Shown here in pieces: positions 1,658-23,423 of a stretch of DNA of 24,973 nucleotides (position 1 is its first letter; the number at the start of each line of letters is the position of its first letter). This DNA comes from a virus. The notes beneath the pieces were generated by a model. It saw only the letters and a list, made by a program, of their open reading frames with translations, was not told the DNA's origin and ran no database searches. The stretch covers positions 1-24,973 of the IMG/VR virus record IMGVR_UViG_3300046011_003041. The stretch is one strand, 5' to 3'. A program made the position numbers and the translations under genes.

Positions 1658-1684
1658 GTATACAAACATTTATATGAGTTGATG

Positions 1685-2494
1685 ATGACTAACGTAATAG
1701 CAAATTATAATACCACTAATTATTATATTCCATTACCCTATATTGCTAATAGAGTAGTAGATGATTTATCGCGTATCGTATCTGCTTTTGTAACTATCGA
1801 CTCTTTACTAGCTACAAAAGCAGATAGTAGCTTGATCGGAACACTTAACGGTCTTGCGACGTTAGATAGTAATGGTAGACTAACATCCTCTCAATTACCG
1901 GCATTAACTGGTGATGTAACTTCTAATGCTGGATCTACAACACTAGCTTTGTCTAACACTGGTGTTGTAGCTGGGACGTATAACTCTGTTACTGTAGATG
2001 CTAAGGGTCGAGTTATAAGTGCATCAGTTGTGTCAACTACACCTAATGTATCAAGTGATTTTACAACTACGTTAAACACGTTAAGCTTATCTGACACTGG
2101 TGTTGTAGCCGGGACGTACAGTTCGGTGACTGTTGATGCTAAGGGGCGAATTACAAATGGTACGATTCCTGCTAACGATCCTTCACAAACACAGTCTAAA
2201 ACACTTCAATGGGTTGGAACCGTTACTAGCATGATTGGTAATAATAGATGGTATCCATTTAAACCGGTTACAATAATTGGTGCATATATGTCTATAAATA
2301 CCGCGCCAACCTCATCAATTACAGCAACTATAAATAAAAACGGAGTAGCAATAGGTACTGTTACACTATTAGCAGGTGCTTATATAAGTACCACCACCGG
2401 CTTATTAACATCAATGACAGTTGATGATTATATTCTTGTTGATATTGCAGGTACTTCCGGAGCTAATGCTTCATTAACGATAACCTATATTTAA
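1685..2494 (+). CDS. Small tail-fibre-like protein with phage fibre repeats
   Basis: A 269-residue probable virion fibre protein. Residues 1-60 form a short N-terminal part, probably the attachment end. The middle holds two copies of the phage tail-fibre repeat built on GVVAGTYxSVTVDAKGR (around residues 98 and 140). The same repeat fills the C-terminal third of the giant fibre at 5468-12166, and the DNA is similar too. The last 100 residues (from KTLQWVGTVTSMIGNNRW) look like a compact beta-sandwich with ASITATINKNG-like strands, a form common at phage fibre tips. The start is uncertain: TTG 1679, ATG 1682 and ATG 1685 are in frame. ATG 1685 is preferred because GAG at 1676-1678 then sits six bases upstream. 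A late promoter at 1650 precedes it, and the next gene follows nine bases later. Confidence 0.75.
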   Translation: MTNVIANYNTTNYYIPLPYIANRVVDDLSRIVSAFVTIDSLLATKADSSLIGTLNGLATLDSNGRLTSSQLPALTGDVTSNAGSTTLALSNTGVVAGTYNSVTVDAKGRVISASVVSTTPNVSSDFTTTLNTLSLSDTGVVAGTYSSVTVDAKGRITNGTIPANDPSQTQSKTLQWVGTVTSMIGNNRWYPFKPVTIIGAYMSINTAPTSSITATINKNGVAIGTVTLLAGAYISTTTGLLTSMTVDDYILVDIAGTSGANASLTITYI

Positions 2495-2503
2495 GGAACC
2501 ATT

Positions 2504-4738
2504 ATGGCAGCACCTACAATTACCTCTTTAGGTAATAATACAACGCAAATAACTCTTAATCAATCGACTATAGTTGAAATGACTACAGCTGTTAAAAATG
2601 CTATTACAGGCCTAACTATTCCTACTGCAACTACTTTTAGTAATGGTGGAACAACTGGATGGGATCTTGTATGGGAAGGTTATTTGCATGACTATACTAA
2701 AGTATTTCATCAAGTATTTAGAGCATTAAATAAAGATGGTGTATCCTATAAACCGCTTATTTTACGATGGTATCCACAAGAAAATGAATTATGGGTTACT
2801 ACTTGTGAGAATATTACAATAGGTGGCAGTGCAAGTGTTTTTACTGCAGCACCTAACCAAGCACGAACTACTACATATAATAATACAACATTTGTGAATG
2901 AAGCCTTTACATGGGAAAATTGTTCAGCTACTCCATTTAAAATGGATGCTTGTGATTTAATTATTAATGTAGATGCTAGACATTTTATTGTACAATCGTA
3001 TATTGCATCAGAGCCTGGTCCATGGCAAGGTATTTTTGAAATACAAAGAAATGATCCGTTAGATACGCCCACGCAGTCAAAACCTTGTTGGGGTTTTATA
3101 GGCTCTACATTATGGATGCTTGGGGTTACGAACAATGATCCTACTACCTTAAATGCCAGTGGCTCAGTACCGCTAGCTAATAGTCCGGGTAGAACATATC
3201 CATTAATTTGTATGCCATCGATAATGAAATCTACAGGAAGAGCCACGGGTTACAGTGCATGTATAGATTTAGCAGCAGATTTTGGGATAGGAACTTTCCC
3301 TACATGGACACATTACAGTTCTACTTTTAACCCTAGTTATCATTCTCCTGCGCTGCCTGCGCTAATGTCAAATGATGCTAATAATGGCAGATTTCAATTC
3401 AGCGGATGGGATAAGACTAAACGGGCAGCTTTACCAATATCAGTTGTGTCTGATTATGCTTCAACAGCGCCAGTTGTTCTTGGGCAAATATATGGCTTAA
3501 AATTAATTGGTCCTGTTGGGCAAAGCATGAATAAAATGAAGTTAACTGTAGATAGTGACGGAAGTTACTCTGCTAGTGGTACTGAAAAAGATCATTTCAT
3601 ATTAAATATACACCATAAAAATGGTTACTCTATTCAGGCTCATGCTGCGCGGACTGAATTAACTTACACAACTCTTGGCAGTTTTCCTGGTGATAGCTCT
3701 TATGGTATATGTGCTATTGTCAGCGCAGGCTCGTGCTATATTGCTGTGCAAGGTACAAAAGTATACAAAGTAGATGCTTTTTCTGGTGGTACATCACTTT
3801 TATTTACTGCAAGCGGTGCATATACTGCGCATCGTTTTGACGGTGAAAAATATTTTTATATGATGACTAGCAGTCAATTACATCGTATAGACGTGTATCA
3901 AGGAACAGTCAATTCATATGCAGTTACCTCAAGCGCAAAGTGGTTTGATTTGCTTCGTTCATCTCTTGGTGTTGATAATATACTGTATACAACGATTAAT
4001 ACCACAGTAGCACCTATTGTGTATAAACTTGATGTAAGTGCTGGAACTAACTCAACTTTAGTAACATCTCCGTCTGTGGCTAATTCAATTGCATTAGGTT
4101 CGCTTGCTATCGATGCATGGGGGAATATTGCATTTCAAACTACTGCATGGAGTTCTAGTGTATTGCCATTCAGAATTAAATATTACAGCAATACAGCTGT
4201 TTGGTCAGAGGTTGGTATGCCAGTAGTTCCAAGCACTGATTTTCAATATCAGTATCACAATAATATACGATTGATCAATAGCTCAACATTTATCAGCGCT
4301 TTAGCAAATGGCGGTCCTCACAGTAGAACTGCATTTTATAAGATTTATGTTAACGTTTTTAATTTCAGTACATTCCCAAATGTTCAACTTCAAATGTCTA
4401 GTTTTCCGCACGAAACTAATATGTATCCTCCATATGCAATTAGCAGATTTTTTGGTAATTTGGTAATTGGTGGGGTTACTACACAGTCTAACGGTAATAA
4501 TTATTCTTACGCGCACCTGTCAGCATATGGAAGTACATATTTTTACGGAAATACGGCTAATTTTGCCGATACCACTCTTGCTCCTACTAATGGAGCTGTG
4601 TGGACATTAATGAGCGATGGTGTTCGGGCTATAATGCCTAGTGGTGCAGGTGGTACTGCTCTTAGAGTAATTTCAGGCTTTGGCAGTGACCGTGTATACA
4701 ACCAAACAAAATTAGCGCAGATTGCAGTGGTGGCATAG
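2504..4738 (+). CDS. Large virion protein of unknown family with probable C-terminal beta-propeller
   Basis: A 744-residue protein not assigned to a named family. The strong AAGGA (2493-2497) overlaps the preceding stop and fixes the ATG six bases on. Residues 1-45 are Thr/Asn-rich, as in fibre attachment regions. Residues 50-400 are a mixed aromatic-rich region (GWDLVWEGYLHDYTKVF, then WYPQENELWVTT). From about residue 400 there are spaced strands with a similar ending, VYKVDAFSGG, LHRIDVYQGT and VYKLDVSAGT, about 41-46 residues apart, typical of beta-propeller blades. There is no signal peptide, transmembrane helix or recognisable catalytic motif. Its place between a fibre protein and two small genes, under a late promoter, suggests a fibre or baseplate-associated adhesin. 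The coding call is sure; the function is inference. Confidence 0.75.
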   Translation: MAAPTITSLGNNTTQITLNQSTIVEMTTAVKNAITGLTIPTATTFSNGGTTGWDLVWEGYLHDYTKVFHQVFRALNKDGVSYKPLILRWYPQENELWVTTCENITIGGSASVFTAAPNQARTTTYNNTTFVNEAFTWENCSATPFKMDACDLIINVDARHFIVQSYIASEPGPWQGIFEIQRNDPLDTPTQSKPCWGFIGSTLWMLGVTNNDPTTLNASGSVPLANSPGRTYPLICMPSIMKSTGRATGYSACIDLAADFGIGTFPTWTHYSSTFNPSYHSPALPALMSNDANNGRFQFSGWDKTKRAALPISVVSDYASTAPVVLGQIYGLKLIGPVGQSMNKMKLTVDSDGSYSASGTEKDHFILNIHHKNGYSIQAHAARTELTYTTLGSFPGDSSYGICAIVSAGSCYIAVQGTKVYKVDAFSGGTSLLFTASGAYTAHRFDGEKYFYMMTSSQLHRIDVYQGTVNSYAVTSSAKWFDLLRSSLGVDNILYTTINTTVAPIVYKLDVSAGTNSTLVTSPSVANSIALGSLAIDAWGNIAFQTTAWSSSVLPFRIKYYSNTAVWSEVGMPVVPSTDFQYQYHNNIRLINSSTFISALANGGPHSRTAFYKIYVNVFNFSTFPNVQLQMSSFPHETNMYPPYAISRFFGNLVIGGVTTQSNGNNYSYAHLSAYGSTYFYGNTANFADTTLAPTNGAVWTLMSDGVRAIMPSGAGGTALRVISGFGSDRVYNQTKLAQIAVVA

Positions 4739-5140
4739 ATGGCCACTCTCCCAACTACTACATATGTAACGCCTTTATATAGAAGTGCAAATATTAGTAA
4801 CCAAGTACGTTGCGGTACATTTTATGACTTGCCATTTTCAGCTAAACAAGTACATAAAATAGATAATTGTAAAGGCTGGAAGGATGCTACTATTAGTCCA
4901 AACGTAGGTAATTTTTATAGCATTTTAAATAATTTTAAAATTGACGCTAAAGTAAAATACGGGGGTGTAATACCTCCAGAAGAGCCTAAATCATTATTAT
5001 TTGTGATTAATTATAGGCAAGATTTATTGGCTCAATATTTTTATCCATTCCCTATCCCAACACTATTTAGTGTAGCCACGGGGTGGAAAAGCCCCTACGC
5101 ACTTACAGCAGGTGTTCAATTTTATTCATACTGGAGTTAA
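4739..5140 (+). CDS. Hypothetical protein, 133 residues, in fibre operon
   Basis: The ATG follows directly after the TAG of the previous gene (4736-4738), with no gap and only a weak ribosome site, so translation is probably coupled. The protein is soluble and beta-rich with many Tyr, Phe and Asn residues. It has a Pro-rich middle (GGVIPPEEPKS) and an aromatic segment (QYFYPFPIPTLF) near residue 100. No family is recognised. Length and place fit a small structural accessory of the 744-residue protein, but this is context only. Confidence 0.65.
   Translation: MATLPTTTYVTPLYRSANISNQVRCGTFYDLPFSAKQVHKIDNCKGWKDATISPNVGNFYSILNNFKIDAKVKYGGVIPPEEPKSLLFVINYRQDLLAQYFYPFPIPTLFSVATGWKSPYALTAGVQFYSYWS
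5133..5136 (+). promoter_or_regulatory. Ribosome binding site that fixes the start at 5142
   Basis: GGAG lies five bases before ATG 5142 and just before the stop codon (TAA 5138-5140) of the previous gene. It favours 5142 over the in-frame ATG at 5112, which lies inside the upstream gene with no comparable site. Confidence 0.6.
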
Positions 5141-5141
5141 T

Positions 5142-5372
5142 ATGGATTACAATACAATTAAAGAATTTCTATCATCTGCTACGTTTATCTATGCAGATAT
5201 AACAGAAGAAGAGTTAAGTAACGCCACAGGTAGTATATATCTTACAGAAGTTAACGGTATTAAGTACTTAGGTACATCAATGGCTATTGAAGAATTGGCA
5301 GAGAAAGAGTTAATAGCTCCTGCACCTGTCGAAGAAGAAGTGATTGTTGAAGAAGTACCAGTAGTAGAGTAA
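5142..5372 (+). CDS. Small acidic hypothetical protein, 76 residues
   Basis: The start is set at ATG 5142, one base after the upstream stop, with GGAG five bases before it. An in-frame ATG at 5112 would add ten residues but overlaps the preceding gene and lacks a good ribosome site. The first 50 residues look folded (MDYNTIKEFLSSATFIYADI, then GSIYLTEVNGIKYLG). The last 20 are an acidic low-complexity tail of Pro, Val and Glu (APAPVEEEVIVEEVPVVE). Such tails occur on small phage accessory proteins that sit next to fibre genes. No family is recognised. It is the last gene before the control region of the giant fibre. Confidence 0.65.
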   Translation: MDYNTIKEFLSSATFIYADITEEELSNATGSIYLTEVNGIKYLGTSMAIEELAEKELIAPAPVEEEVIVEEVPVVE

Positions 5373-5387
5373 AGTTATATCTTAATT

Positions 5388-5457
5388 CTCTATACATTTA
5401 TAAATACGAGTTAATTAAACATAATTAGATGTTGATTCTGGTTTTAAATGTATAGAG
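5388..5457 (+). promoter_or_regulatory. Inverted repeat able to hide the giant-fibre ribosome site
   Basis: CTCTATACATTTA (5388-5400) and TAAATGTATAGAG (5445-5457) are perfect 13-base reverse complements separated by 44 bases. The right arm includes the first four bases of the Shine-Dalgarno AGAGGA (5454-5459) that serves ATG 5468. A transcript arriving from upstream contains both arms and can fold. A transcript from the late promoter, whose box overlaps the end of the left arm, should start near 5412 and lack that arm. This is the arrangement known from T4 genes such as e (lysozyme), where early read-through RNA is translationally silent and the late RNA is open. The repeat and overlap are directly visible; the regulatory role is inference. 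Confidence 0.6.
5399..5406 (+). promoter_or_regulatory. T4-type late promoter (TATAAATA) of the giant fibre
   Basis: The exact late -10 box sits in the 95-base gap before the 2232-residue fibre gene, with a predicted RNA start near 5412. Its first two bases are the last two of the left hairpin arm (5388-5400), so the resulting transcript would carry only the right arm. A ten-base palindrome ATTTATAAAT (5396-5405) overlaps the box. Confidence 0.7.
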
Positions 5458-5467
5458 GATATAATAA

Positions 5468-8400
5468 ATGTTAGCAGATGGTTTACAGTTCCTAGAAGGG
5501 TCGGTCAATACTAATCTTGTTTTACCATCAGTTACGGAAGCTGGTAAGGCCGCATTAGTTAACGTTGATGTTGGTGAGATTGTTTGGCAGACTACTGGTG
5601 AACAAGGTATCTATGTATATGACGGTACTGTTTGGCAATATGGGTTAGATACCGCTCCGTATACTCCACCTAAAACAACATTAACTGCATATGGTATTAC
5701 TGACGCGGTTCGATCAAACCCAACTATTACCGCAGGTACTGGTACTAAAGTTACATATGATAGTAAGGGTCTCGTAACAAGCTCTACTACACTAGTATTA
5801 TCCGACCTACCAGATATTCCGACCACAAAACTAACAGGTCAAATATCTGTTGCACAATTACCTACACTTGGTTCAACCGCACACACATATAATAAAGTTT
5901 ATGTTGATGCAACCGGTCGAGTTGTAAGTGGTGAAACAAGCACCACATTAGCTGGTTTTGGCATAACAGATGCAATCCGCTCAAACACAGCAATTACCGC
6001 AGGTACTGGAACTAAAGTTTCATATGACTCTAAAGGTCTAGTTTTATCGTCCACAACGTTAATTGAAACAGATATACCAAATATTCACACCAGTAAGTTA
6101 ATAGGTAAAATATCTACAGCTCAGCTACCAGAGCTTGGTGATATTACTAATACCTATACAAAACCACATATTGATAGCACTGGACGAGTAATTGGTGGTG
6201 ACAATCCAACAACTTTAGCTGGGTATGGCATTACAGATGCAATGTATGCTAATCAACTAATCACACCAAACACCGGCATTAAAATAACTTATGATGAAAA
6301 TGGATTAGTATTATCATCCGGCTCATTAACTGTAAGTGATATACCTGAACTAGATGCGAGTAAAATCACCACCGGTAGATTCTCTGCTAATTTTTTACCG
6401 TTTATTGATACGTTAAATATTGGTTATTACACAAAAGTATTAATAGATAATACTGGTCGTGTAACTGCTGGATCAAATCCAACTACCTTAGCTGGATACG
6501 GTATTACAGATGGTATGACCGGTAATGCTGATATTCCAGCTGGAACCGGTACTAAAATTACATATGATGAGAAGGGATTAGTTACCGCATCTGACATATT
6601 AATTGAAAGCGATATTCCGGACCTAGATGCTAATAAAATTACAACTGGTGTATTTAATGCATCATTACTGCCATTAACTGGTACAGCTGGTAGCTACTAT
6701 AATGTTACTACTGATAACAAAGGTAGAGTTACTGCGGGTGTTTCAAATTTAACTATTGCAGATATCGATGAGCTTACAAGTGAATTAGCGTATAAAGCTG
6801 TACCGAGTGATATTACATCCGCAATAGACGCCATTAAAGATGAAGTTGATTCAAGTGGAAACACACTTAAAAAATTATATAATTTAATATTATCTAATAG
6901 CCATGAAGTTACGGTTGCAGATACCGCAGCTAGAAATGCATTAAATATCTCATCATTACCAACTAACATATTCGTAGTTAATGATGGTGACGACCACTGG
7001 GCGTTATATAAAGCTACTACATTAGGTTTAGCTGTAGATGCAAATGTAGTTAAGATATCTGACCCAGACTTATTAAACGGTGCACTAGGATTTAACGCTG
7101 AAGGTATTAACAATAAAGATCCTGATGAAACATTATCAGCTAATAGCGATATTAAATATCCAACACAAAAAGCTGTTAAAACATATGCTGACACAAAACT
7201 ATCGCCAAATGCTGATATTGTTGCAGGTACCGGTACTAAAATTACTTATGATAGTAAGGGGTTAGTTGTTAGCAAATCAACGCTTGTAGCATCTGATATT
7301 CCAAGTTTAGATGCGAGTGTGATTACATCAGGGGTATTTAATCAAACATTGATTCCAACTGTTGGTATTAATACTGCATTAACATACGTAAAAGTAAATG
7401 CTGATCAGTATGGGCGAGTCACATCCGGTGTAACCGCATTAACAGCATCTGATATACCAAACCTAGATGCAAGTAAAATTACCACCGGTAAAATTACAAC
7501 AAGTATGTTGCCTGATATTGGTATCAGCGAACATACATATCGTTCTGTAAGTGTTGACGGTCAAGGACGAGTAGTTACAGGTACTAACCCTACTACTCTA
7601 GATGGGTACGGAATTACTGATGCTTTAAGAGTTCCAGCAGCAATAACGCCTGCAACTGGTATTAAAATTACATATGACACACATGGGTTCGTATTGAGCT
7701 CAGAACCAAGTCTTGCTGTATCTGATATTCCTGATTTACCATTAAGTAAAATTACATCCGGTGTATTAGAAGCATCTATGCTTCCATTATCAGGTGTAAC
7801 AGCGGGTCACTTTAAGAAAATTACTGCTGATCGATTTGGCCGTGTAGTAGGTGGAACAGATACTCTTATTATTCCTGATATTACCGATTTACAAGCGGCA
7901 TTAGATACAAAAATTACAGGCCCAGTTGCACAAAGTTATGTTGATATTGCCGTAGCCGCTATTAAAAATAATGTACCTGTTGCAGGTGAAACATTAAATG
8001 ATTTATACGAGTTAATTAAAGTATGTCAACATGATACTGCAGTTATTAATATTGCTGCACGTAACGATTTAATTGTTGATTCATTACCTGCAACCATATT
8101 TGTTGAGGATGATGGCGATGGTAAGTGGGCGCTATATCGTGTGTTATTTACCGATGAGCAGTTTGGTAACTATCAACTAACTCATGAAGATGCGGTTATA
8201 CATGATAAGTTTGCAAAAATATCTGATGAGAGTTTCCTTGCTCTTATCGCTACAGGATTTACACCTGAAAACGCATACAACAAATCAACCAATATTTTAT
8301 TATTAGATGGTGCGCAGGCAAGTAGCGTTAAATATCCAACGCAATCAGCTGTAAAAAGTTATGTTGATAACAGATTACTAACGATATCATCATTACTAAC

Positions 8401-11400
8401 AGATGTTATTCATACCACCGCTGTACCACCTGGTACTGATTTAAACACTACTTACCTAGTATTAGATGACGATATAAGATTAACTGATAACCGTCCTCCG
8501 TTAGAGCATACTCATTTATCAACAGATATAGATGGGTTTACAGAAGCATTAGTTAATAAGATCGATAAAGGTCCGGGTGTGATTGCCGGTACAGGTATAA
8601 AAATAACTTATAATACGGATGGGTTGGTTACTGGAGTTACCGCGTTAGAAGCTAGTGACATTCCAAATATCAGTGCAGACAAAATTACAAGCGGCACATT
8701 AAGTATTAATCGATTACCACCAACAGTTGTATATACAGATGAGAATGGTATGGTACCATCAGGTATGATACCATCTATATCACTAACAGGTACGATCACA
8801 CCTGCAACTATTGAGGATATGAATCTTGATACTACCTCTCCTGTAGGTACAGTAGCAGTTGTTGCGTCAACAAATGAAACCTATGTGCAATCATCTACTG
8901 GTTGGGTATTATTAAATGTTCCAACTGATCATGTAATATCAATTAACGGTAAAAATGGAGTTATAGTAAAAATTACACCAGAAGATACTGCGGGATTTGT
9001 TGATGCTGCTAAGGCTGGTACACCATTATTAACAACACTTTTACCAGGATTAACTGGTGATGTCACATCATCAGATGGCTCTAACGTTATTACATTAAAT
9101 GATATACCAGGTATCAATACTGCAGCAAGCTATACTAGTGTGCAGGTTAATAGCAAAGGCTTAGTAATTGGCGGTGGAACTGCTCAGGCAGTAACTACTG
9201 AGGTTGGTGATCTTAGATACGTAATACAAACATCATTAGGTGAAAGAAATGTTGCAAATGGTTATGCTGGATTAACATCAAACGGTGTTATAAGCTTTGA
9301 ACAGCTACCATACTTAACAGGTGATGTTACTTCTTCTAATGGATCTAACTCGGTTATATTGAAATCTATAATTGGCTTAGATACATCGTTGCCATTCACT
9401 ACAGTGAATGTTGATATGAAGGGTAGAGTTATTGGTGGTACAACTGATCCAGTATATACTAGCGCTCAATGTGATGAACAATTCCTAACTATTTTAGAAA
9501 GTGGTCATAAAAACCTAGCTAGTGGTTATGCAGGGCTAAATGAATCTGGTTATGTAGATACTTTAGTGTTACCAGCGTTTACAGGTGATGTTAACTCACT
9601 TGCAGGTACTAAAACAATCAATTTAAACATCATGCCTAATGTATTAACAGGGGTTGATTATACATCGGTACGTGTAAACAATAAAGGGTTAGTAACATCA
9701 GGCTCAACTAGTGTGATGTATACAAAAGCTCAAGTGGATTCTGCATTTGTTACTAAAGCAGATACAGGTATTAAAAACGCACCAAACGGGTACGTTGGCT
9801 TAAATGCAAATGCAAAAATTGATACAGCATTTTTACCACAACTTGTAATTAATAACCAATTTGTAGTTCAGTCACTTGGTGAACGTAACCTACTTGCTGC
9901 TGTAACTGGTGATATAGCGATAGTGCTAGGCACAGTAAATCAATCATTTATTTTAGCAGCAGCAGATCCAACCGTTAATGAGCATTGGATTGAATTTACA
10001 TCGTCTGCTAATGTACTTCAAGTTAACGGTCAAACAGGATCTGTTAACTTATCTTTATTAGATCTAAATGGTAGATTACAAGCAACACAATTACCTTTAC
10101 TAACATCTGGAGGCATTATAATTGACCCAGATAATAATGATCAGTTAATGCTAAATGATGTAGGTACTAATCAATTAGCAACGGGTGAAATTGGTGTTTA
10201 CACACAGGTAACAGTTAATAGTAAAGGTTTAGTAATAGAAGGTACATCTCCAACTTCAATTATAGATTTTGGAATTACAGACGTAGTATCTACACTTAGA
10301 TTACCAGAGAATGATGATGGTGTTTCAAAGATAGTTACAGTTGACGCAACAGGTAAAATTAGTAGCAGTTTAATTCCTGCAATATCAGTATCGCAAATAT
10401 TTACATTCTTTGCATCCGATGCAACAAAAGAAAGTATTATTGCTGAAGATAGTCCTGCACTCGCTGCAACTCAAGGTGCAATGGCTATTGTTGGTGGTAC
10501 AGCAGGTGCAACTTTCATATTAACATCTGATGTACCTACCAATATTGAAGATTGGGTAATGATGCAGGCGCCGGGCGGAGGTGGTTCTAGTGGTATATCA
10601 TCTGTTAACGGATTAACTGGTAGTGTAGTAACTGTTGCATACCCTGATATCGATAACGTGTCTACAGATATTGTAGCTAGCGGTACATATAATACTGTTA
10701 CTGTTAATAATAAAGGTAGAATTGTATCTGTAGCCAACACACCAATGGTGTCATTAAGTGGTGGATTAATATCAACCAGCGTATTACCTGCATTTACAGG
10801 TGATGTTCGTACTACCGCAGGTACCTCTATAACAACGTTAGCCGCTAGCGGGGTAGTAGCTGGCACATACAAATCTGTTACAGTTGATGCTAAAGGGCGT
10901 GTACTTAACGGTACAAATCCAACAACTGTTGCTGGATACGGTATTACAGACGCATTATCATCAAGCCGCTTAGCTGCACCGGGTGGAATTGCAACATTAA
11001 CTGCAGGTGGATCATTAACTACAAATCAAGTACCTGCATTCATCGGTGGTGAAGTTGTATCAGTTGCTGGATCGTTAAATTTATCATTAACTCCAAGCGG
11101 TGTTGCGGCGGGAACATATAAATCTGTTACGGTTGATACTAAAGGTCGTGTAACTGCTGCCACTAACCCAACTACACTAACCGGATACGGTATTACTGAT
11201 GCTGTTAACGTATCTAGAATTGATGCGGCACTTGGTGTAGCTGGATTAAACGTAGATCGTAAAATATCATCCGGATATTTTCCAGCTAGTGGTGTAACTG
11301 CTGGTACTTATACTAGCGTTACTGTAGATATTACCGGACGTGTAACAGCTGCATCAAATCCTGATATATTAATGGTAAGCTCAATTGGTGCAGCTAACGG

Positions 11401-12166
11401 GGTTGGTGGTTTAGATGCTGATAGACGTCAAACAACCGAGCAAGTACCAATATTTGCTGGTGGCGATGTAGTTTCTACTGGTGGAACTAAAGTATTAACA
11501 TTAACAAACACTGGTGTGGTACCTGGAACGTATACTAGTGTTACGGTTGATGCTAAAGGGCGGGTAACAGCTGCGGATAGCTCGTCATTATCTAGTACGT
11601 TCTCTGGTAATGTTACAGCACCAGTGTTTATATCTAATGTAGCTACAGGTACAGCTCCATTACAAGTTACATCGAGCACATTAGTACAAAATTTAAATGT
11701 ACAAAAATTAAATGGTATATTGGTTACAGGAAATGGTACCGCTGGACAAGTACTTACATTAGATTCAACCAGTGCTGCAAGTTGGCAGGATAGTGCAGGT
11801 GGTACCGCAACTGGATCAACAGAAGCAACTCCCAACACTGTTGTTCAACGTACGTCGGATGGTAGTGTATATGCTACTAACTACTATTCAACATCTGATA
11901 GAAACTATAAAGGTAATATTCAACCATTAACTAATGTAACAGATATAGTAAATCAATTACAACCTGCTACATTTAACTTTAAAGCTGATGAACATCAACG
12001 TCTACACTTTGGTTTAATTGCGCAAGAAGTTGAAACAGTATTACCTGCGTTAGTAACAAAAGATGAAGCAGATATTAAATCAGTGAATTATGTGGAGTTA
12101 ATACCAATATTACTAGCTAATATACAAGAATTAAATGCACGTATAGCAGTACTTGAAGGTAAATAA
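5468..12166 (+). CDS. Giant modular tail fibre with C-terminal peptidase S74 chaperone
   Basis: A 2232-residue protein made almost wholly of repeat modules. Its N-terminus (about 1-60, LEGSVNTNLVLPSVTEAG) should attach to the virion. Residues 70-430 hold four modules of 89-91 residues, with Y/F-GITD at 75, 164, 253 and 344, each followed by a GTKxxYDxKGLV strand and an SDIPxLDxxKIT segment. More GITD copies lie near 714, 1601, 1824 and 1907. Residues about 440-960 hold a long two-copy duplication, about 1200-1460 a third module type, and 1740-2040 several copies of the GTYxSVTVDxKGRV fibre repeat. The last 90 residues are the intramolecular chaperone of endosialidase-type fibres, with Ser2143 and Lys2148 spaced as in the self-cleavage dyad, HFGLIAQEVE, and a C-terminal coiled coil. 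It should trimerise, then lose the chaperone. AGAGGA fixes the start. The receptor is unknown. Confidence 0.93.
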   Translation: MLADGLQFLEGSVNTNLVLPSVTEAGKAALVNVDVGEIVWQTTGEQGIYVYDGTVWQYGLDTAPYTPPKTTLTAYGITDAVRSNPTITAGTGTKVTYDSKGLVTSSTTLVLSDLPDIPTTKLTGQISVAQLPTLGSTAHTYNKVYVDATGRVVSGETSTTLAGFGITDAIRSNTAITAGTGTKVSYDSKGLVLSSTTLIETDIPNIHTSKLIGKISTAQLPELGDITNTYTKPHIDSTGRVIGGDNPTTLAGYGITDAMYANQLITPNTGIKITYDENGLVLSSGSLTVSDIPELDASKITTGRFSANFLPFIDTLNIGYYTKVLIDNTGRVTAGSNPTTLAGYGITDGMTGNADIPAGTGTKITYDEKGLVTASDILIESDIPDLDANKITTGVFNASLLPLTGTAGSYYNVTTDNKGRVTAGVSNLTIADIDELTSELAYKAVPSDITSAIDAIKDEVDSSGNTLKKLYNLILSNSHEVTVADTAARNALNISSLPTNIFVVNDGDDHWALYKATTLGLAVDANVVKISDPDLLNGALGFNAEGINNKDPDETLSANSDIKYPTQKAVKTYADTKLSPNADIVAGTGTKITYDSKGLVVSKSTLVASDIPSLDASVITSGVFNQTLIPTVGINTALTYVKVNADQYGRVTSGVTALTASDIPNLDASKITTGKITTSMLPDIGISEHTYRSVSVDGQGRVVTGTNPTTLDGYGITDALRVPAAITPATGIKITYDTHGFVLSSEPSLAVSDIPDLPLSKITSGVLEASMLPLSGVTAGHFKKITADRFGRVVGGTDTLIIPDITDLQAALDTKITGPVAQSYVDIAVAAIKNNVPVAGETLNDLYELIKVCQHDTAVINIAARNDLIVDSLPATIFVEDDGDGKWALYRVLFTDEQFGNYQLTHEDAVIHDKFAKISDESFLALIATGFTPENAYNKSTNILLLDGAQASSVKYPTQSAVKSYVDNRLLTISSLLTDVIHTTAVPPGTDLNTTYLVLDDDIRLTDNRPPLEHTHLSTDIDGFTEALVNKIDKGPGVIAGTGIKITYNTDGLVTGVTALEASDIPNISADKITSGTLSINRLPPTVVYTDENGMVPSGMIPSISLTGTITPATIEDMNLDTTSPVGTVAVVASTNETYVQSSTGWVLLNVPTDHVISINGKNGVIVKITPEDTAGFVDAAKAGTPLLTTLLPGLTGDVTSSDGSNVITLNDIPGINTAASYTSVQVNSKGLVIGGGTAQAVTTEVGDLRYVIQTSLGERNVANGYAGLTSNGVISFEQLPYLTGDVTSSNGSNSVILKSIIGLDTSLPFTTVNVDMKGRVIGGTTDPVYTSAQCDEQFLTILESGHKNLASGYAGLNESGYVDTLVLPAFTGDVNSLAGTKTINLNIMPNVLTGVDYTSVRVNNKGLVTSGSTSVMYTKAQVDSAFVTKADTGIKNAPNGYVGLNANAKIDTAFLPQLVINNQFVVQSLGERNLLAAVTGDIAIVLGTVNQSFILAAADPTVNEHWIEFTSSANVLQVNGQTGSVNLSLLDLNGRLQATQLPLLTSGGIIIDPDNNDQLMLNDVGTNQLATGEIGVYTQVTVNSKGLVIEGTSPTSIIDFGITDVVSTLRLPENDDGVSKIVTVDATGKISSSLIPAISVSQIFTFFASDATKESIIAEDSPALAATQGAMAIVGGTAGATFILTSDVPTNIEDWVMMQAPGGGGSSGISSVNGLTGSVVTVAYPDIDNVSTDIVASGTYNTVTVNNKGRIVSVANTPMVSLSGGLISTSVLPAFTGDVRTTAGTSITTLAASGVVAGTYKSVTVDAKGRVLNGTNPTTVAGYGITDALSSSRLAAPGGIATLTAGGSLTTNQVPAFIGGEVVSVAGSLNLSLTPSGVAAGTYKSVTVDTKGRVTAATNPTTLTGYGITDAVNVSRIDAALGVAGLNVDRKISSGYFPASGVTAGTYTSVTVDITGRVTAASNPDILMVSSIGAANGVGGLDADRRQTTEQVPIFAGGDVVSTGGTKVLTLTNTGVVPGTYTSVTVDAKGRVTAADSSSLSSTFSGNVTAPVFISNVATGTAPLQVTSSTLVQNLNVQKLNGILVTGNGTAGQVLTLDSTSAASWQDSAGGTATGSTEATPNTVVQRTSDGSVYATNYYSTSDRNYKGNIQPLTNVTDIVNQLQPATFNFKADEHQRLHFGLIAQEVETVLPALVTKDEADIKSVNYVELIPILLANIQELNARIAVLEGK
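5681..6760 (+). repeat. Tandem fibre modules of about 89 residues (GITD type)
   Basis: Four consecutive modules inside the giant fibre begin with LAGYGITD or a close variant, at 5690, 5957, 6224 and 6497. The steps are 267, 267 and 273 bases. Each carries an AGTGTKITYDSKGLV-like strand, then SDIPxLD, then a LPxxG and a GRVxxGxNPTT strand leading to the next copy. The copies have diverged, so this is an old array kept by selection on protein shape. Confidence 0.8.
6780..8390 (+). repeat. Two-copy long duplication within the giant fibre
   Basis: A block at about 6780-7270 recurs at about 7900-8390. Matching landmarks are AARNAL/AARNDL, then SLPTNIFVVNDGDDHWALY against SLPATIFVEDDGDGKWALY, then KYPTQKAVKTYAD against KYPTQSAVKSYVD. 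The landmarks lie about 375-395 residues apart, so the unit is about 1.15 kb including intervening GITD-type modules. This suggests a larger duplication after the small modules had formed. Confidence 0.7.
9040..9850 (+). repeat. Third fibre module type, three tandem copies
   Basis: Three copies with a step of about 87-88 residues are marked by NVANGYAGL, NLASGYAGL and NAPNGYVGL (near 9250, 9511 and 9776). Each is joined to an LTGDVTSSxGS strand or relative and a VxVNxKGLV strand. This module type seems confined to this part of the fibre. Confidence 0.7.
10680..11590 (+). repeat. Phage fibre repeats near the giant-fibre C-terminus
   Basis: Five copies of GTYxSVTVDxKGRV or a close variant lie near 10684, 10861, 11113, 11305 and 11527, some followed by GYGITDA. 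The copy near 11509-11580 is similar at DNA level to the repeats in the separate fibre gene at about 1950-2160, which suggests module exchange between the two genes. Confidence 0.75.
11894..12163 (+). other. Peptidase S74 / intramolecular chaperone domain of the giant fibre
   Basis: The domain spans residues 2143-2232. SDRNYK supplies Ser2143 and Lys2148, five residues apart as in the Ser-Lys dyad of endosialidase-type fibres. HFGLIAQEVE and the VNYVELIPILLANIQELNARI coiled-coil region follow in the usual order (only the motif positions are claimed here). Cleavage just before Ser2143 would free a 90-residue chaperone after fibre trimerisation. Confidence 0.88.
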
Positions 12167-12168: not shown

Positions 12169-13296
12169 ATGGCATTCTATATAAATGATGCCTCATTATC
12201 TGATCAGTTCGTAACAGAATACGAACTGATTGATAAATGGGTGAGCTGCAACACCGTAAAGGTGTGCGGCTCAAATACGTATGGTCAGTTAGGGTTAGAC
12301 ACCACTACTACTGTTTTTAATGCGATATTTCAAGATGTACCTAACGTTAGTAATATTAAACAGGTTGCAACCGGATCGAACTTTAGCGCAATATTAAGAC
12401 CTGATGGTTTCTTATATACTTGTGGTGATAACTCGTACGGGCAATTAGGTGTAGATTCGGCACTGAGTCAATTTATTAAGTTTATGCCTGTCTACACCGG
12501 ATTGAACATAAATTACATCGCATGCGGTGCGACTGCACTATTTGCTGTGGATACTGACGGTAACTTGTATGCTTGTGGTAAGAATACTAATAACATGCTA
12601 GGAATATCATCAGGTGATTCATTCCGTAAGATGCAACAAGTGCCGTATGCATCTGGGGTTGTGCAGGTAGCCTGTGGATTATCACACACCGTGATACTAA
12701 AGCAAGATGGTACAATAATGGTAGCTGGAAGTAACGCATACGGTCAATTAGGTCCTGTTCTGGATGCTACCCAATTTACATCAGTACCAAATATAACAGA
12801 TATTAAACAAATTGCATGTGGTGATAATCACACTATATTATTAACGAAGAGTGGTACATTGTATGCTACTGGGTTAAATAATAATCATCAATTAGGTTTA
12901 AGTGAAGATAGTTATAACAATTTTACCCTTATACCTGATGTTGATTCAGTTCGCTCGGTATCTACACATCAAGGTCACACTATTATAGTATTAAATGATG
13001 GTACTATACTAGGATGCGGGTTAAATGTTAGTGGTCAGTTAGGTATGGGTAATTTAGTAAGTGCGTACACGGTATTTGTACCAATTACAAATATTACAAA
13101 TATACGTGCTAGCTATTGTATTAATAACACAACATTATTGCTACGAGTAGATGGAACTGTATTGTTTGCAGGTAGAGCAAATAAGCAAGTAAACTTATCA
13201 ACTGCCTCATACTACACATTTCAGCCGTTACCAAATATAACTGATATCAAACAGTTATCGGTAGGTCAATCACACACTATGCTGCTAAAATATTAA
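12169..13296 (+). CDS. RCC1-type seven-repeat beta-propeller protein 1
   Basis: A 375-residue protein with about 33 N-terminal residues before the first blade, then seven RCC1-like repeats of about 50 residues. The blade motif is CGxNxYGQLG: VCGSNTYGQLG, TCGDNSYGQLG, ACGKNTNNMLG, VAGSNAYGQLG, ATGLNNNHQLG, GCGLNVSGQLG and a decayed AGRANKQVNL. Between them run the linking strands NIKQVAxGxNFSAILxxDG. The fold should be a closed seven-bladed propeller, as in RCC1 and the beta-lactamase inhibitor BLIP-II, and such proteins act as binding platforms rather than enzymes. There is no signal peptide or membrane segment. It starts two bases after the giant fibre with GAAGG upstream, so it probably shares its transcript. 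A role as fibre-tip or tail adhesin is inferred from position. Confidence 0.88.
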   Translation: MAFYINDASLSDQFVTEYELIDKWVSCNTVKVCGSNTYGQLGLDTTTTVFNAIFQDVPNVSNIKQVATGSNFSAILRPDGFLYTCGDNSYGQLGVDSALSQFIKFMPVYTGLNINYIACGATALFAVDTDGNLYACGKNTNNMLGISSGDSFRKMQQVPYASGVVQVACGLSHTVILKQDGTIMVAGSNAYGQLGPVLDATQFTSVPNITDIKQIACGDNHTILLTKSGTLYATGLNNNHQLGLSEDSYNNFTLIPDVDSVRSVSTHQGHTIIVLNDGTILGCGLNVSGQLGMGNLVSAYTVFVPITNITNIRASYCINNTTLLLRVDGTVLFAGRANKQVNLSTASYYTFQPLPNITDIKQLSVGQSHTMLLKY

Positions 13297-13934: not shown

Positions 13935-15113
13935 ATGACTTCTGGCTTCTATGAATACGATGAGGATATTTTATCCAAATATCTATCACAAGATTACATG
14001 TTAAATGCATTTCCTGGAAATTCATTTACGTCATTATATACCAGTGTACAAGCATTCGGTAGTAGTTATTCAGGTCAATTAGGTGATTTAGAATTATCTC
14101 ACTTATTACCTGTATTTCTACCAGTGGCTAATGTATCGCAAGTAGCTGCTGGTGACGGGCATGTGATGGTGGTTAAAGCGGACGGTACTGTTTGGGGAAT
14201 AGGTGATAATTCAAAAGGTCAACTAGGGAATGGTACACTAATCACTAGATACACTACATTTCAACAAGCAACAAATATATCCAACGTAAAGCAATTAGTA
14301 TGTGGTTCCGACTTTACATATGCATTAAAATATGATGGAACTGTGGTAGCCTGTGGTAGTAATTACTACGATCAGCTTGGTGTGCCAGATGGCGGACAAT
14401 ATAATACGTTTAATGCAGTACCAGGGTTATCAAATATTGTGCAATTAGTGTGTGGTGGTTACCATGTAATAGCATTAAAAGAAGATGGTACAATATTAGT
14501 GTGTGGTAACAACGATTATGGTCAATTAGGTATTGGAGCTGCACTAAAAGCATCATATTTCACCATTGTACCTACTACCACACCAATTAAATTTGTAGCT
14601 GCAGGTACTTGGCACTCTATGCTTATCACGTCTAATGATGCACTACAATCAGCTGGTATTAATACCGGGGGAGCATTAGGATTAGGTGAGAATTACAGTA
14701 CAATTGCAAAAGTAACGACGTTTACCGATGTACCTAACACTGTCAACGTAAAATACGTGGCTTGTGGTAACAATATTACTATGGCTACAAGAACTAACGG
14801 TATGTTATTTGTATGTGGTACAAGTACTGTTGGTGCTTTAGGATTAAAGTACTCAACGTCAGCTAATACATTGAGATTAATACCGGAAATTACAAATGTA
14901 AAGCGTATTGCGTTTGGAAGTGCTCATACTGCGATATTTACCACTGATGGTAAAGTATTAACAACTGGTTATAATATTTCAGGTCAACTTGGAACTGGAG
15001 ATGCAATAGATCGCACTACATTTCAACAAATAACTCAAGTGAATAACATCAAACAGCTGGCTTGCTATGGATCTACCACTCTACTCCTAACAACACCTGC
15101 GAATTGGATGTAA
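13935..15113 (+). CDS. RCC1-type seven-repeat beta-propeller protein 2
   Basis: A 392-residue paralogue of the 12169 and 15211 genes. About 40 N-terminal residues differ from those of its relatives (MTSGFYEYDEDILSKYLSQD), as expected if they dock to different partners. Seven blades follow: AFGSSYSGQLG, GIGDNSKGQLG, ACGSNYYDQLG, VCGNNDYGQLG, SAGINTGGALG, VCGTSTVGALG and TTGYNISGQLG. The repeat length is about 50 residues, as in RCC1. It starts two bases after the DUF4376-like gene with only a weak ribosome site, so coupling is likely. It converges with the third propeller gene on the minus strand. Confidence 0.87.
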   Translation: MTSGFYEYDEDILSKYLSQDYMLNAFPGNSFTSLYTSVQAFGSSYSGQLGDLELSHLLPVFLPVANVSQVAAGDGHVMVVKADGTVWGIGDNSKGQLGNGTLITRYTTFQQATNISNVKQLVCGSDFTYALKYDGTVVACGSNYYDQLGVPDGGQYNTFNAVPGLSNIVQLVCGGYHVIALKEDGTILVCGNNDYGQLGIGAALKASYFTIVPTTTPIKFVAAGTWHSMLITSNDALQSAGINTGGALGLGENYSTIAKVTTFTDVPNTVNVKYVACGNNITMATRTNGMLFVCGTSTVGALGLKYSTSANTLRLIPEITNVKRIAFGSAHTAIFTTDGKVLTTGYNISGQLGTGDAIDRTTFQQITQVNNIKQLACYGSTTLLLTTPANWM

Positions 15114-15210: not shown

Positions 15211-16332
15211 TTATACTAGTTGCTTGATCATCAGCTGATGTTTATCGCCACCGCTAATATATTTAATGCGATCTGCACCTAATACAGTGTTAAAACGTGA
15301 ATTATTTGCAGATGGTGATACACCTAGTTGTTTTGATGAATTATCACCACATGCTAGTACAGTACCGTTAGTTAATAGCACATTTGTTGAGTTATATGCA
15401 CAATATACAGCTTTTGCGTTAATTATCGCTGTAATTTGACGTGGAGTCATTGTTTTATTAGATAGTGCTAAACCTGCACCTAACTGACCAAAGTTATTTC
15501 TACCCCAAACATATACAGAACCGCTATTAGTTACAGCAGCTACGTGTGATAATCCAGCTGATATTGATTTTACCCCGGTAATTCCAGGTATTTGTTGAAA
15601 GGTAGTGTTATCGGTGGATGCAAATCCTAATTGACCGTAAGTATTATTACCACATGCATACAATATACCGCTAGTTGCTAATAATATCGTGCTACTATCA
15701 CAGCAGGCAATTTGTTTAATATTATCAACACCCTCTACTGCAGTAAAAGTAGATGTATTTGTTGTATTTCCTAGACCTAATTGACCATTACTGTTATTAC
15801 CACATGAGATAACCGTACCGTTTGATAATAATGCAACGGTATGTTGTTTACTATTAGCTATTTTAACGACATTATCTATACCGGGCGCTAATGTAAACGT
15901 GGTATATGTATCAGCATTATCAAATCCTAATGATCCTGATAGATTTTGACCACATGCGTACAATTTACCATCAATCGTTACAGCAAATGAGTTATTTCCA
16001 TTGCTGCTAATGTATGTAATATTACAAATATCTGGAACAACTTGAAAAGTAGTTGTATTAGCCGGTAAACCAAGCTGTCCGGATGAGTTATCACCGGAAG
16101 CTAGTAGTGATCCATCAGTAAGTAGTATGAAAGAATGATCTGTGCCGCAAGCTATTTGAGCTGCAGCGGTAATATTAGGTACATTATTAAGCGATAAGAC
16201 TGGATCTACACCTAATTGTCCAAGGATATTGCTGCCTAATGCATATACCAAGTTTCTACTAAACATTGCACGAGGAATCAATGATTCTAGCACATTAGTA
16301 TTTACAGAATTGCTGACTTTAAATAATGACAT
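15211..16332 (-). CDS. RCC1-type seven-repeat beta-propeller protein 3 (inverted)
   Basis: A 373-residue paralogue on the opposite strand to all neighbours. About 27 N-terminal residues (MSLFKVSNSVNTNVLESLIP) precede seven blades: ALGSNILGQLG, ASGDNSSGQLG, ACGQNLSGSLG, SCGNNSNGQLG, ACGNNTYGQLG, VWGRNNFGQLG and ACGDNSSKQLG. The blades are better conserved than in the other two copies. It has its own late promoter at 16391-16398 reading leftward, with a predicted leader of about 50 bases, so it should be expressed late like the rest. The ribosome site before ATG 16332 is weak (GAG at -11 to -9). The frame is intact, so the inversion has not damaged the gene. Confidence 0.88.
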   Translation of the reverse strand: MSLFKVSNSVNTNVLESLIPRAMFSRNLVYALGSNILGQLGVDPVLSLNNVPNITAAAQIACGTDHSFILLTDGSLLASGDNSSGQLGLPANTTTFQVVPDICNITYISSNGNNSFAVTIDGKLYACGQNLSGSLGFDNADTYTTFTLAPGIDNVVKIANSKQHTVALLSNGTVISCGNNSNGQLGLGNTTNTSTFTAVEGVDNIKQIACCDSSTILLATSGILYACGNNTYGQLGFASTDNTTFQQIPGITGVKSISAGLSHVAAVTNSGSVYVWGRNNFGQLGAGLALSNKTMTPRQITAIINAKAVYCAYNSTNVLLTNGTVLACGDNSSKQLGVSPSANNSRFNTVLGADRIKYISGGDKHQLMIKQLV

Positions 16333-16390
16333 TGGGTACTCATGAAATAATTGGTGGTGTTACGAGTATTTAGGTGGATTTATATGATAA

Positions 16391-16398
16391 TATTTATA
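16391..16398 (-). promoter_or_regulatory. Leftward T4-type late promoter
   Basis: The plus strand reads TATTTATA, so the minus strand reads TATAAATA, the late -10 box. RNA should start near 16385, about 50 bases before ATG 16332 of the inverted propeller gene. It is the only promoter-like element for that gene. Confidence 0.65.
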
Positions 16399-16402
16399 AA
16401 GT

Positions 16403-16410
16403 TATAAATA
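16403..16410 (+). promoter_or_regulatory. Rightward T4-type late promoter of the neck operon
   Basis: An exact TATAAATA box with a predicted RNA start near 16416, 25 bases before ATG 16441 and upstream of AGGAG (16426-16430). No terminator is visible until 24175, so this promoter may serve all four genes through gp15. Confidence 0.68.
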
Positions 16411-16440
16411 TTAGTTATTTAGAGCAGGAGAATACCAATC

Positions 16441-19035
16441 ATGGCAATCAATAATCCAACGAAGTTGGTGATAGACTTTAATGCCGATGTCCAGACCAGT
16501 TGGCCCAACGGTCAAAGCACTGTTGCGCGAATTATTACGAATAAATTTGAAATTCCATTTAGTAGTTACAATGTTGGATCAGTAGATATAAACTCCACTT
16601 CAACACCTATATTATTAGGAAATATAGCGACTGGAGTATTTTATAGTGACCAGTTAGTAACTTATACTGTAGATAGTACTGATGTAGTTAATACTAAATT
16701 TTTTGCATATGAAGGTCCAGCTGTACCTATTACCGTATCCACGACGCACCCAACAGCAGTTACAGTTGAATACGCGTTAAGTGTATCGCAAATCCCAACT
16801 ATTATTAGAACTGCACCAGGTGCACCAACAATTACTACTGTAACAGTAGATGATCACATAGCTACTGTATCATTTACAGCTCCTATAACTGATGGTAATA
16901 GTTCGATTACATCATATAAAGTAACTACAGTCACTGGTGAGTATCTTACAACAGGTACACAGTCACCTATTACTGTAACTGGGTTACCAAATAATGTTGC
17001 ATATCGTTTTAAAGTATCAGCGGTAAACGCAATTGGTGAGGGTGCTGTTAGTGCATTATCATCTAATGTAACGCCATTAGCTCCAACTGTACCAGATGCA
17101 CCTGCGATATACTCAGTTGTACCTAACAACGGTCAAGTTTCAGTATTCTTCCATCCCCCTGTGTACACAGGTAGACGTCCAATTGTTGCTTACTCAGTTG
17201 TATCAAGTAATGGTGATTGGGCAGGTGGGGTGGCATCACCAATCGTGGTGACTGGATTAACTAACGGCGAACCTTTAACATTTACAGTAACAGCTGTTAA
17301 CGTTGTAGGTTACAGCGCACCTAGCGCGCCAAGTATACAAATGGCGGCTGCAAATGTACCAATGGCACCTACTATTGACAATGTAGATGTAGGTGCAGCT
17401 TCAGCGTTAGTTGAATTTACACCTGGTGATGATGATGGTAGTGATATTACTGCATTTATAGTAACAGCTACTCCAGGTAATATTACCGCATCTGGGATGG
17501 ATTCACCAATTTTAGTAACAGGATTAACTAATGGTACTGAATACGAATTCACAGTACGTGCTATAAATGCTGTCGGTCCTAGCCCTGAAAGTGTAGTTGC
17601 AAGCAATAATTATATACCATTAGATGTACCACATGCACCAACTAATGTAGCTGGTGTTAGTGTTGGTGTAGGAGCTGTTAGCGTTTCGTGGGTACCACCA
17701 TTAATAACTGGTGGTCAAATTGACTCTTATGAAATAGAATCATATAACACTGATACTGAACTAACCTCTACTACTCTTACTGAGGATATACCAACAGTAG
17801 TTGACGAGTTACAATCAGGTGCGGTATATCAGTTTAGAGTTAGAGCGGTTAATAGTGTAGGTAATGGAGCCTGGAGTTTAAGTAGCGCAAATGTTTCGAC
17901 ATGGTCAGTACCAGTAGCACCTACAGCTGTAACTGCTGTTAATGCTGGTGTAGGTAGTATTGAAGTAACGTTTACTGCTCCAACAGTTACTGGTGGTAGC
18001 CCAATCACAAGTTACGACGCAGTAATTTGGAATGTAGATACTGAAACTTCAGATACACAGAATACATTAGCGTCACCAGTTACTTTCGGTCAACTTGAGC
18101 TCGGCACTGAATATGTTGTTGAAGTATTTGCAATTAGTGATGTGGGTACTGGTGCAAGCAGTGGCTACAGTGGATCAGTTACTACTTGGGATGTTCCAGG
18201 TGCTCCAACAGGTGTAGTTGCAACTGCTGGTGATGAGCAGGCTTCTGTTGCATTTACTGCACCTACTCAAACCGGTGGCAGACCAATACTTGAATATTCA
18301 GCGATATCATCACCAGGTGGGGTTCTACTCACATCATTAGTTTCACCGATTATATTTACTGAGTTAACTAATGGTACTGCATACACATTCGAAGTATTTG
18401 CACATAATATCGCGGGTGATGGACCTAATAGTACGCCAAGTGCTCCAGTTACACCTCAAGGTGCAGCAACAGTACCAGTTGCACCAACTAACGCAATTGC
18501 ATCACTAACCGCTACAGCACTTCAAGCGCTAGTTGCATTTGATATTCCAAATGATGGTGGATCTGCAATACTTGGATACACTGTAACATCTGACCCAGAT
18601 GCAATTTCTGCTACAGGAACTACCTCACCAATCGCTGTTGACGGGTTAACTAATGGTACTCTGTATGACTTTACAGTTATTGCAACTAACGCTGTAGGTG
18701 ATAGTTTACCAAGTACTCCAACAAACCCAGTATCTATGTCAGCACCATTAGTACCGGTGGCACCTATTAATATAGTTGCAAGCCTTGTTACACCAGGGTC
18801 AATTAGTGTAATGTTCGATCCGCAAAGTGATAATGGTCGACCAGTAACTATGTATAATGTAACCGCTGCAAATGTAACTGATCCAGTGCAACCAACTTAT
18901 ACAGCACACGATTCCCTGCTACCTGTATTGGTAGCAGGATTGACGGTAGATGATGTGTATGAATTCACTGTAACGGCGACTAACGTAGTAGGTGATAGTT
19001 TACCTAGTCTTGTAAGTAATCAGTTACCAGCTTAA
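16441..19035 (+). CDS. Eight-domain fibronectin type III virion protein
   Basis: An 864-residue protein. Residues 1-120 form a distinct N-terminal domain (MAINNPTKLVIDFNADVQTS), probably for attachment. Eight fibronectin-III domains follow, starting near residues 125, 217, 306, 396, 490, 585, 678 and 771. Each opens with VPxAPT or a variant and has the core Y-x-F-x-V-x-A-x-N-x-x-G (for example YEFTVRAINAVGPSP). Domain length of 90-95 residues is normal. FnIII domains on phage virions bind weakly to cell-surface carbohydrate and act as spacers. No enzyme domain, signal peptide or membrane helix is seen. AGGAG ten bases upstream supports the start. It is first in the neck operon, so it may decorate the head-tail junction; that location is inferred from gene order. 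Confidence 0.85.
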   Translation: MAINNPTKLVIDFNADVQTSWPNGQSTVARIITNKFEIPFSSYNVGSVDINSTSTPILLGNIATGVFYSDQLVTYTVDSTDVVNTKFFAYEGPAVPITVSTTHPTAVTVEYALSVSQIPTIIRTAPGAPTITTVTVDDHIATVSFTAPITDGNSSITSYKVTTVTGEYLTTGTQSPITVTGLPNNVAYRFKVSAVNAIGEGAVSALSSNVTPLAPTVPDAPAIYSVVPNNGQVSVFFHPPVYTGRRPIVAYSVVSSNGDWAGGVASPIVVTGLTNGEPLTFTVTAVNVVGYSAPSAPSIQMAAANVPMAPTIDNVDVGAASALVEFTPGDDDGSDITAFIVTATPGNITASGMDSPILVTGLTNGTEYEFTVRAINAVGPSPESVVASNNYIPLDVPHAPTNVAGVSVGVGAVSVSWVPPLITGGQIDSYEIESYNTDTELTSTTLTEDIPTVVDELQSGAVYQFRVRAVNSVGNGAWSLSSANVSTWSVPVAPTAVTAVNAGVGSIEVTFTAPTVTGGSPITSYDAVIWNVDTETSDTQNTLASPVTFGQLELGTEYVVEVFAISDVGTGASSGYSGSVTTWDVPGAPTGVVATAGDEQASVAFTAPTQTGGRPILEYSAISSPGGVLLTSLVSPIIFTELTNGTAYTFEVFAHNIAGDGPNSTPSAPVTPQGAATVPVAPTNAIASLTATALQALVAFDIPNDGGSAILGYTVTSDPDAISATGTTSPIAVDGLTNGTLYDFTVIATNAVGDSLPSTPTNPVSMSAPLVPVAPINIVASLVTPGSISVMFDPQSDNGRPVTMYNVTAANVTDPVQPTYTAHDSLLPVLVAGLTVDDVYEFTVTATNVVGDSLPSLVSNQLPA

Positions 19036-21914: not shown

Positions 21915-23423
21915 ATGGCATATAATCCAAGACGAGTAGTTTCACCAATTGTTCATCAAAACAGTCCATTTCAGATGTTTGATGAACAATTAAGCAATAA
22001 ATTAATGAATGATTATGTGACTGAAGGTCTCATGATCGGTGGTACAAGTGTGTTAGTGTATAAGCTATTAGGTATACACGAACAAAAAGAATTATTGCCA
22101 TTATCAGGTACTCCTATAACTAATAGCGAGTACCCTGAGTTTCCTGTTGCAAACGTATTTCAAGATGATGATACTGAATGGCATTCTGTAAATAGATGTG
22201 GGGTGCGTAATCCGGATACTTATATTGGATATGATTTTGGACCTATTAAGATTCAAGGTACCGATATTGATAAGTATGCAATTCACTCCGAAGTAAAGTA
22301 TCACGTTACATCTGTTTATATTCAACAAGGCGCTTTAGCTAAAAATAGAATAACTAAAGCCCGTGTTGAACGCTCTGATGATGGTATAACATGGGTTGGT
22401 GTTGCATTATTAACACTACCAGATGATGATCAACCACATTGGGTAGATATACGTCAAAGTGCTCCATCTAGATATTGGAGAGTGGTACCAACCACTTATA
22501 ATAGTGCTACTGATTTATGGATCGTTAAAAAGTTATCATTCTCAGAATACACTAAGACTGGTATTACTAATATTCAAGATGAGATGGGATTCTTAGAAAA
22601 TAGAGATCGTAGTTATTCTACAGATCCAATTACTATGAAAGCATATTATAATTTAATAGATGTTACTACAGATTTAAGTCAATTTGGTATCGACCTTAAA
22701 AATCAATACAATTTCAAATTTGGCTTTGATATGACAGTTCAGCATTTAAACCGACCGATAGTAATCGGTGATGTACTAGATGTATTATGCGAAGTACAAT
22801 TTGATACTCAATTAAATCCAGTGCGTAAGTATCTTGAGGTGACCGATGTTGCTTGGGACTCTGGGTCATTTACACCTGGGTGGCAACCAACTTTGTATTC
22901 TGTTACCGCTCAGCCAATGATAGCATCACAAGAAACAATGGATATTGTAGGCGATTTAAATAATGACTTCTTTGACAGTATAGAAATGTTTAACACCACT
23001 GCATTAAAATCTAGTAAACGTATTAGAGCAGAAGCTGATACTCAGGTACCTGAAGTAGGTGGTAGTTATAATGATACTCAATTAGTCCCATCAGATGAAA
23101 TTGAGCGTGGACTAGAGTTAGGATTTAATTTAGCACCTTTAAATCCTAACCCAAAAGAGTATTTACAGGAAGATGCATTACCTCCAAATGGGTTGCCGTA
23201 CACCGAAGGTGATGCTTACCCTGAAAATCCAAGCAATAAAGACTATCATAGATTAACTTACAGTAACGTTAAAGATCCAATTCCAGCTAGATTATATCAA
23301 TACTCAACTACAAAAGGTAGATGGATATTCATGGAAGAAGATAAGCGTATGCGTAATAACAGTAAAAAACCAGCTATTGATCCATTTACAAGTGGTATTG
23401 ATGTTACCAAGTTAGGTAAGTAA
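21915..23423 (+). CDS. Probable gp14-like neck protein with discoidin-like insertion
   Basis: A 502-residue protein, against about 256 in T4 gp14. The order gp13-like, this gene, gp15 is that of T4 genes 13-14-15, which is the main support. The C-terminal half (RPIVIGDVLDVLCEVQF, then WQPTLYSVTAQPMIASQET) fits a neck protein but is only loosely like gp14. Residues about 70-212 look like an F5/8 type C (discoidin, CBM32-like) beta-sandwich: PVANVFQDDDTEWHS, YIGYDFG, VERSDDGITWVGV, then SRYWRVVPTTYN and a final KKLSFSEY strand. That fold binds sugars in many proteins. Residues 400-502 are Pro, Asn and Asp rich and probably flexible. The ribosome site is weak. The neck role is fairly likely; the glycan-binding role is inference. 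Confidence 0.68.
   Translation: MAYNPRRVVSPIVHQNSPFQMFDEQLSNKLMNDYVTEGLMIGGTSVLVYKLLGIHEQKELLPLSGTPITNSEYPEFPVANVFQDDDTEWHSVNRCGVRNPDTYIGYDFGPIKIQGTDIDKYAIHSEVKYHVTSVYIQQGALAKNRITKARVERSDDGITWVGVALLTLPDDDQPHWVDIRQSAPSRYWRVVPTTYNSATDLWIVKKLSFSEYTKTGITNIQDEMGFLENRDRSYSTDPITMKAYYNLIDVTTDLSQFGIDLKNQYNFKFGFDMTVQHLNRPIVIGDVLDVLCEVQFDTQLNPVRKYLEVTDVAWDSGSFTPGWQPTLYSVTAQPMIASQETMDIVGDLNNDFFDSIEMFNTTALKSSKRIRAEADTQVPEVGGSYNDTQLVPSDEIERGLELGFNLAPLNPNPKEYLQEDALPPNGLPYTEGDAYPENPSNKDYHRLTYSNVKDPIPARLYQYSTTKGRWIFMEEDKRMRNNSKKPAIDPFTSGIDVTKLGK

Follow-up and report, generated by a model that had tools for sequence, protein, structure and literature searches.

In bacteriophage T4, the right arm of a hairpin ahead of gene e sequesters the ribosome binding site (RBS) in long transcripts, and late promoters start transcription past the left arm (PMC3014915). 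An RBS hairpin bypassed by a late promoter has likewise been described for T4 soc, 49, I-TevI/II/III and segB and for mobE of phage Aeh1, and in T4 the genes with such leaders are transcribed as parts of long RNAs that also include early or middle genes (PMC2988022). The switch mechanism is therefore already known from e, soc, 49 and I-TevI; our literature search found no tail-fibre case of this type of leader among the papers that it covered. Here we describe a leader with the same geometry in front of a giant tail fibre gene, which would be a new setting for the switch if it functions in the same way. The sequence analysed, referred to below as the window, is the whole 24,973-nucleotide stretch of IMG/VR record IMGVR_UViG_3300046011_003041, a fragment of an uncultured T4-like contractile-tail phage.

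The fibre leader and its setting

The fibre gene (5468-12166, + strand) encodes a protein of 2232 aa that belongs to tail-fibre families and carries a C-terminal S74 intramolecular chaperone; head-tail adaptor, sheath stabilizer and sheath genes are found to its right. Three RCC1-like beta-propeller genes lie beside the fibre (12169-13296, 13935-15113 and 15211-16332), the last of them on the opposite strand. The genes upstream of the fibre are co-directional with it. The nearest of these (5142-5372, +) encodes a 76 aa acidic protein with no assigned family, and its stop codon is followed, after 15 nt, by the left arm of the hairpin.

The leader contains the two arms CTCTATACATTTA (5388-5400, +) and TAAATGTATAGAG (5445-5457, +), which are exact reverse complements over 13 bp, extendable to 19 nt at 89%, and enclose a loop of 44 nt. 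The right arm lies over the Shine-Dalgarno sequence AGAGGA (5454-5459, +) upstream of the fibre ATG at 5468, such that AGAG falls inside the arm and the following G is able to pair as a wobble. A T4-type late promoter box, TATAAATA, occupies 5399-5406 (+) and shares 2 bases with the left arm. Transcription from T4 late promoters begins at the box start + 13, a spacing that would place the start at 5412 (+) and confine the left arm to RNA entering from upstream. The perfect 13-base repeat over the Shine-Dalgarno and the late box overlapping the end of the left arm were both claimed in the initial annotation of this DNA, and both were recovered exactly. Perfect repeats with arms of at least 13 bases and loops of up to 70 nt occurred three times in the window versus 0.08 times per dinucleotide-shuffled window, and the other two are both within genes. 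Two perfect inverted repeats of 14 bp with short loops are located at 21947-21991 and 1779-1826, a short way in from the 5' ends of genes 21915-23423 and 1679-2494, respectively.

Across four contigs of this phage group, ATAAATA was the commonest 7-mer upstream of genes, with 28 sense versus 13 antisense occurrences (the next word of equal composition reached 11), and it was mostly positioned 30–50 nt before the start codon. Based on this enrichment, the box in the fibre leader is credible as a T4-type late promoter. No T4 gp55 was found when the relatives, whose contigs are fragments, were searched for it. Elsewhere in the window, divergent TATAAATA boxes form a palindrome (16388-16413) between the genes at 15211-16332 (-) and 16441-19035 (+).

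Another late-promoter-like TATAAATA box (1650-1657, +) precedes the upstream transcription unit, comprising genes 1679-5372; this unit is thus itself probably late, as would be the RNA that enters the fibre gene from it. The stretch from 5372 to the fibre yielded no terminator-like site, sigma-70-like sites were no commoner than in shuffles, and Rfam gave no match in the window.

Predicted folding and ribosome-site accessibility

Folding with and without the left arm, a check proposed in the initial annotation, bore out the expected difference. The read-through RNA (5373-5490) had a predicted energy of -26.4 kcal/mol compared to -16.1 ± 2.8 for shuffled sequences (z = -3.7; 0 of 200 as good), while the late RNA beginning at 5412 was without notable structure at -6.6 kcal/mol (shuffles -9.2). 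The predicted cost of opening the RBS was 9.9 kcal/mol in the read-through RNA versus 3.5 kcal/mol in the late RNA, a result that was the same for assumed starts from 5410 to 5414. The fibre RBS is accordingly predicted to be hidden in the long RNA and open in the late RNA.

The same measure was obtained for known leaders and for control late genes. Opening costs in long versus late RNA were 16.5 versus about 4 kcal/mol for T4 e and 14.3 versus 1.6 kcal/mol for I-TevI; I-TevII and gene 49 showed a contrast like those of the window and e, and soc only a small one. Among the controls, there was about no switch for T4 genes 18 and 22 or for the major head gene of a related contig (G002), and the window gene at 16441 gave a contrast of only 2.3. 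When 43 pairs of boxes and genes from five contigs were scanned for pairing, four fibre leaders ranked 1, 2, 4 and 5. As a control, the scan was run on T4, where e and I-TevII were among the top hits alongside divergent late gene pairs. Two such pairs, 4/53 and 26/51 (L098, L099), scored as high as e, presumably because the RBS of each gene is able to pair with the complementary sequence of its partner's RBS.

A second leader of the same design was found in G002, ahead of a gene at 35475 (305 aa) located directly before the major head gene. In this leader (35413-35475; L091:15413-15475), TATAAATA lies within the left arm CTAGTATAAA, and the right arm TTTATACTAG runs into the Shine-Dalgarno. 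It differs in that the late RNA keeps other structure, so that the predicted switch is small (9.1 versus 7.0 kcal/mol). Small enzyme-like proteins (acetyltransferase, kinase-like and methyltransferase-like) are encoded in the relatives (L087:1608-3834 and L091:17989-19480), in G002 between the head gene and the fibre. An N-terminal peptide, MxLLxELY, is common to the three from L087 and may be a capsid-targeting tag.

Leaders of related fibre genes

Viral contigs yielded four more fibre leaders (G001, G002, G003 and G004), and the design of hairpin and promoter was kept in four of the five (the window, G001, G003 and G004). These represent two independent hairpin lineages only, G003 and G004 being near copies of each other. 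The G001 fibre is 77% identical to that of the window over the first 200 residues, and the same leader stands there behind a different upstream gene. The G001 stem contains one A-C mismatch, and the window and G001 differ by one extra U-A pair, a base having been added in each arm of the stem. The G003 fibre is more distant (46% identity). Its arms and those of G004, CTTTGTTCAT and ATGAACGAGG, are unlike those of the window yet occupy the same places around a AATAAATA box; the stem relies on two G-U pairs, with one A-C mismatch in G004. The predicted opening costs in long versus late RNA were 15.6 versus 3.8 kcal/mol for G001, 13.4 versus 3.9 for G003 and 12.2 versus 3.9 for G004.

With the arms aligned by structure, 3 of 10 pairs differed on both sides and 95% of cells paired, in a register chosen by hand and fitted to the stem. 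The pair counts rest on these structure-aligned arms, as the promoter of G003/G004 falls out of register with the others in a general alignment. We feel that these changes support covariation, short of proof.

The exception was G002, whose fibre has 73% identity. Its leader keeps the promoter region (box GATAAATA), loop, right arm and ribosome site, but its left segment is unrelated and lacks the left arm, without compensation in the right arm. The contrast in RBS opening is almost absent (4.3 versus 3.4 kcal/mol). Detected homology between the window and G002 begins at 5400, just at the box, and the left arm was therefore probably removed by an exchange of upstream DNA. Given this loss, the hairpin is common but dispensable. 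The comparison of homologous leaders that had been proposed thus returned a divided answer: the design recurs in four of five leaders, including one lineage with different pairing arms, while the expectation that related phages would not carry arms mutated without compensation fails in G002, and in that phage only.

Neither the DNA of the fibre start region nor the first 200 aa of the protein had a match in phage records, and scans of viral contigs and genomes for further fibre relatives yielded no more usable leader. A pattern combining the left arm and box produced 28 hits in viral contigs, of which only G001 came from a relative; a longer conserved stretch is common to many of the others, and a single hit that was inspected coincides in part with a group I intron. 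XacN1 and RAS14, the nearest named phages by sheath stabilizer, were rejected as comparators as they are without many TATAAATA sites. On an otherwise different phage contig (L084:1911-1956), CATAAATA is followed by TTAATTAAACATAA, the start-region sequence of the fibre leaders.

Proposed translational switch, possible insulation and rival explanations

Computation establishes the arms, the box and its enrichment, the predicted switch in fold and accessibility, and the recurrence in four of five fibre leaders; the start site, the read-through RNA, the translational effect and its benefit are inferred. The reading that we favour, and hold to be reasonably probable, is a switch of the T4 gene e type. 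Read-through RNA from upstream would carry both arms and form a long stem over the fibre Shine-Dalgarno, leading to poor ribosome loading, while RNA from the fibre's own late promoter would begin past the left arm, lack the stem and be translated. The most likely effect would be to make fibre synthesis dependent on its own promoter and independent of read-through.

Three rival explanations were weighed against this switch. An appreciable, though minor, chance is given to a hairpin that forms in read-through RNA for processing, stability or insulation of the upstream messages, or that is inherited with little effect, with the hiding of the RBS incidental. This would fit with the dispensability of the hairpin in G002, and with its persistence in G003 and G004 behind two terminator-like hairpins that lie between the upstream gene and the leader, where low read-through is expected. 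However, both hairpin lineages have the Shine-Dalgarno under the right arm, and in both the hairpin is adjoined by a promoter whose RNA would lack the left arm. We consider it improbable that the pairing arose by chance in an AT-rich leader, the right arm being kept as a ribosome site and the left arm matching by accident. The DNA is indeed AT-rich and G002 keeps the right arm without the left, but when the window's left segment was dinucleotide-shuffled 3000 times against a fixed right side, no shuffle matched the real pairing (for the relatives, the fraction that did was 0.001 to 0.004), the different arms of G003 and G004 still pair, and four of the five fibre leaders top the pairing scan. 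Least likely, and by our estimate very doubtful, is a role for the repeat as DNA, its two half-sites serving a regulator that would block or loop the late promoter. The left arm does abut the promoter, and I-TevI is a repressor that binds at its own late promoter (PMC2988022), yet arm sequences and loop lengths differ between the lineages, and the two G-U pairs of G003 and G004 help RNA pairing but break DNA symmetry.

Even for the favoured switch, the resemblance to T4 e extends only so far. The initial annotation had invoked the logic of gene e, and the geometry (an RBS-hiding right arm with late TATAAATA promoters past the left arm), the promoter-like motif and an accessibility contrast matching those of e and I-TevI all stand. 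What is not supported is timing of the e type: the long RNA of T4 is early and its purpose is lysis timing, whereas the RNA upstream of the fibre leader is probably late, the gene is a tail fibre and the loop is 44 nt. The leaders of soc, 49, the I-Tev genes, segB and mobE are similar in being those of late genes with an RBS hairpin bypassed by a late promoter, and I-TevII was recovered by our scan; however, they mostly belong to nuclease genes within early or middle units, and no tail fibre is among them.

Since the upstream unit looks late in the window, and since the two terminator-like hairpins may let little read-through reach the leader in G003 and G004, any read-through may be weak or itself late, with the hairpin possibly insulating instead of timing. 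Insulation of fibre dosage from read-through is, in our view, at least as likely as timing. The specific proposal that the hairpin is a dosage insulator between two late units, silencing late read-through and not acting as an early/late timer, is put forward as a tentative possibility.

With this leader, a textbook T4 switch documented mainly for lysozyme, soc, gene 49 and homing endonucleases would reach a giant tail fibre of an uncultured T4-like group, in which upstream genes are swapped while the leader stays. It also provides an easy test case for whether hairpins of this kind set the timing of a late gene or shield it from its neighbours. If the hairpin is an insulator, the fibre's own promoter would fix the amount of fibre regardless of which gene recombines in upstream, and the leader together with the start of the fibre gene would move as a single self-regulated cassette.
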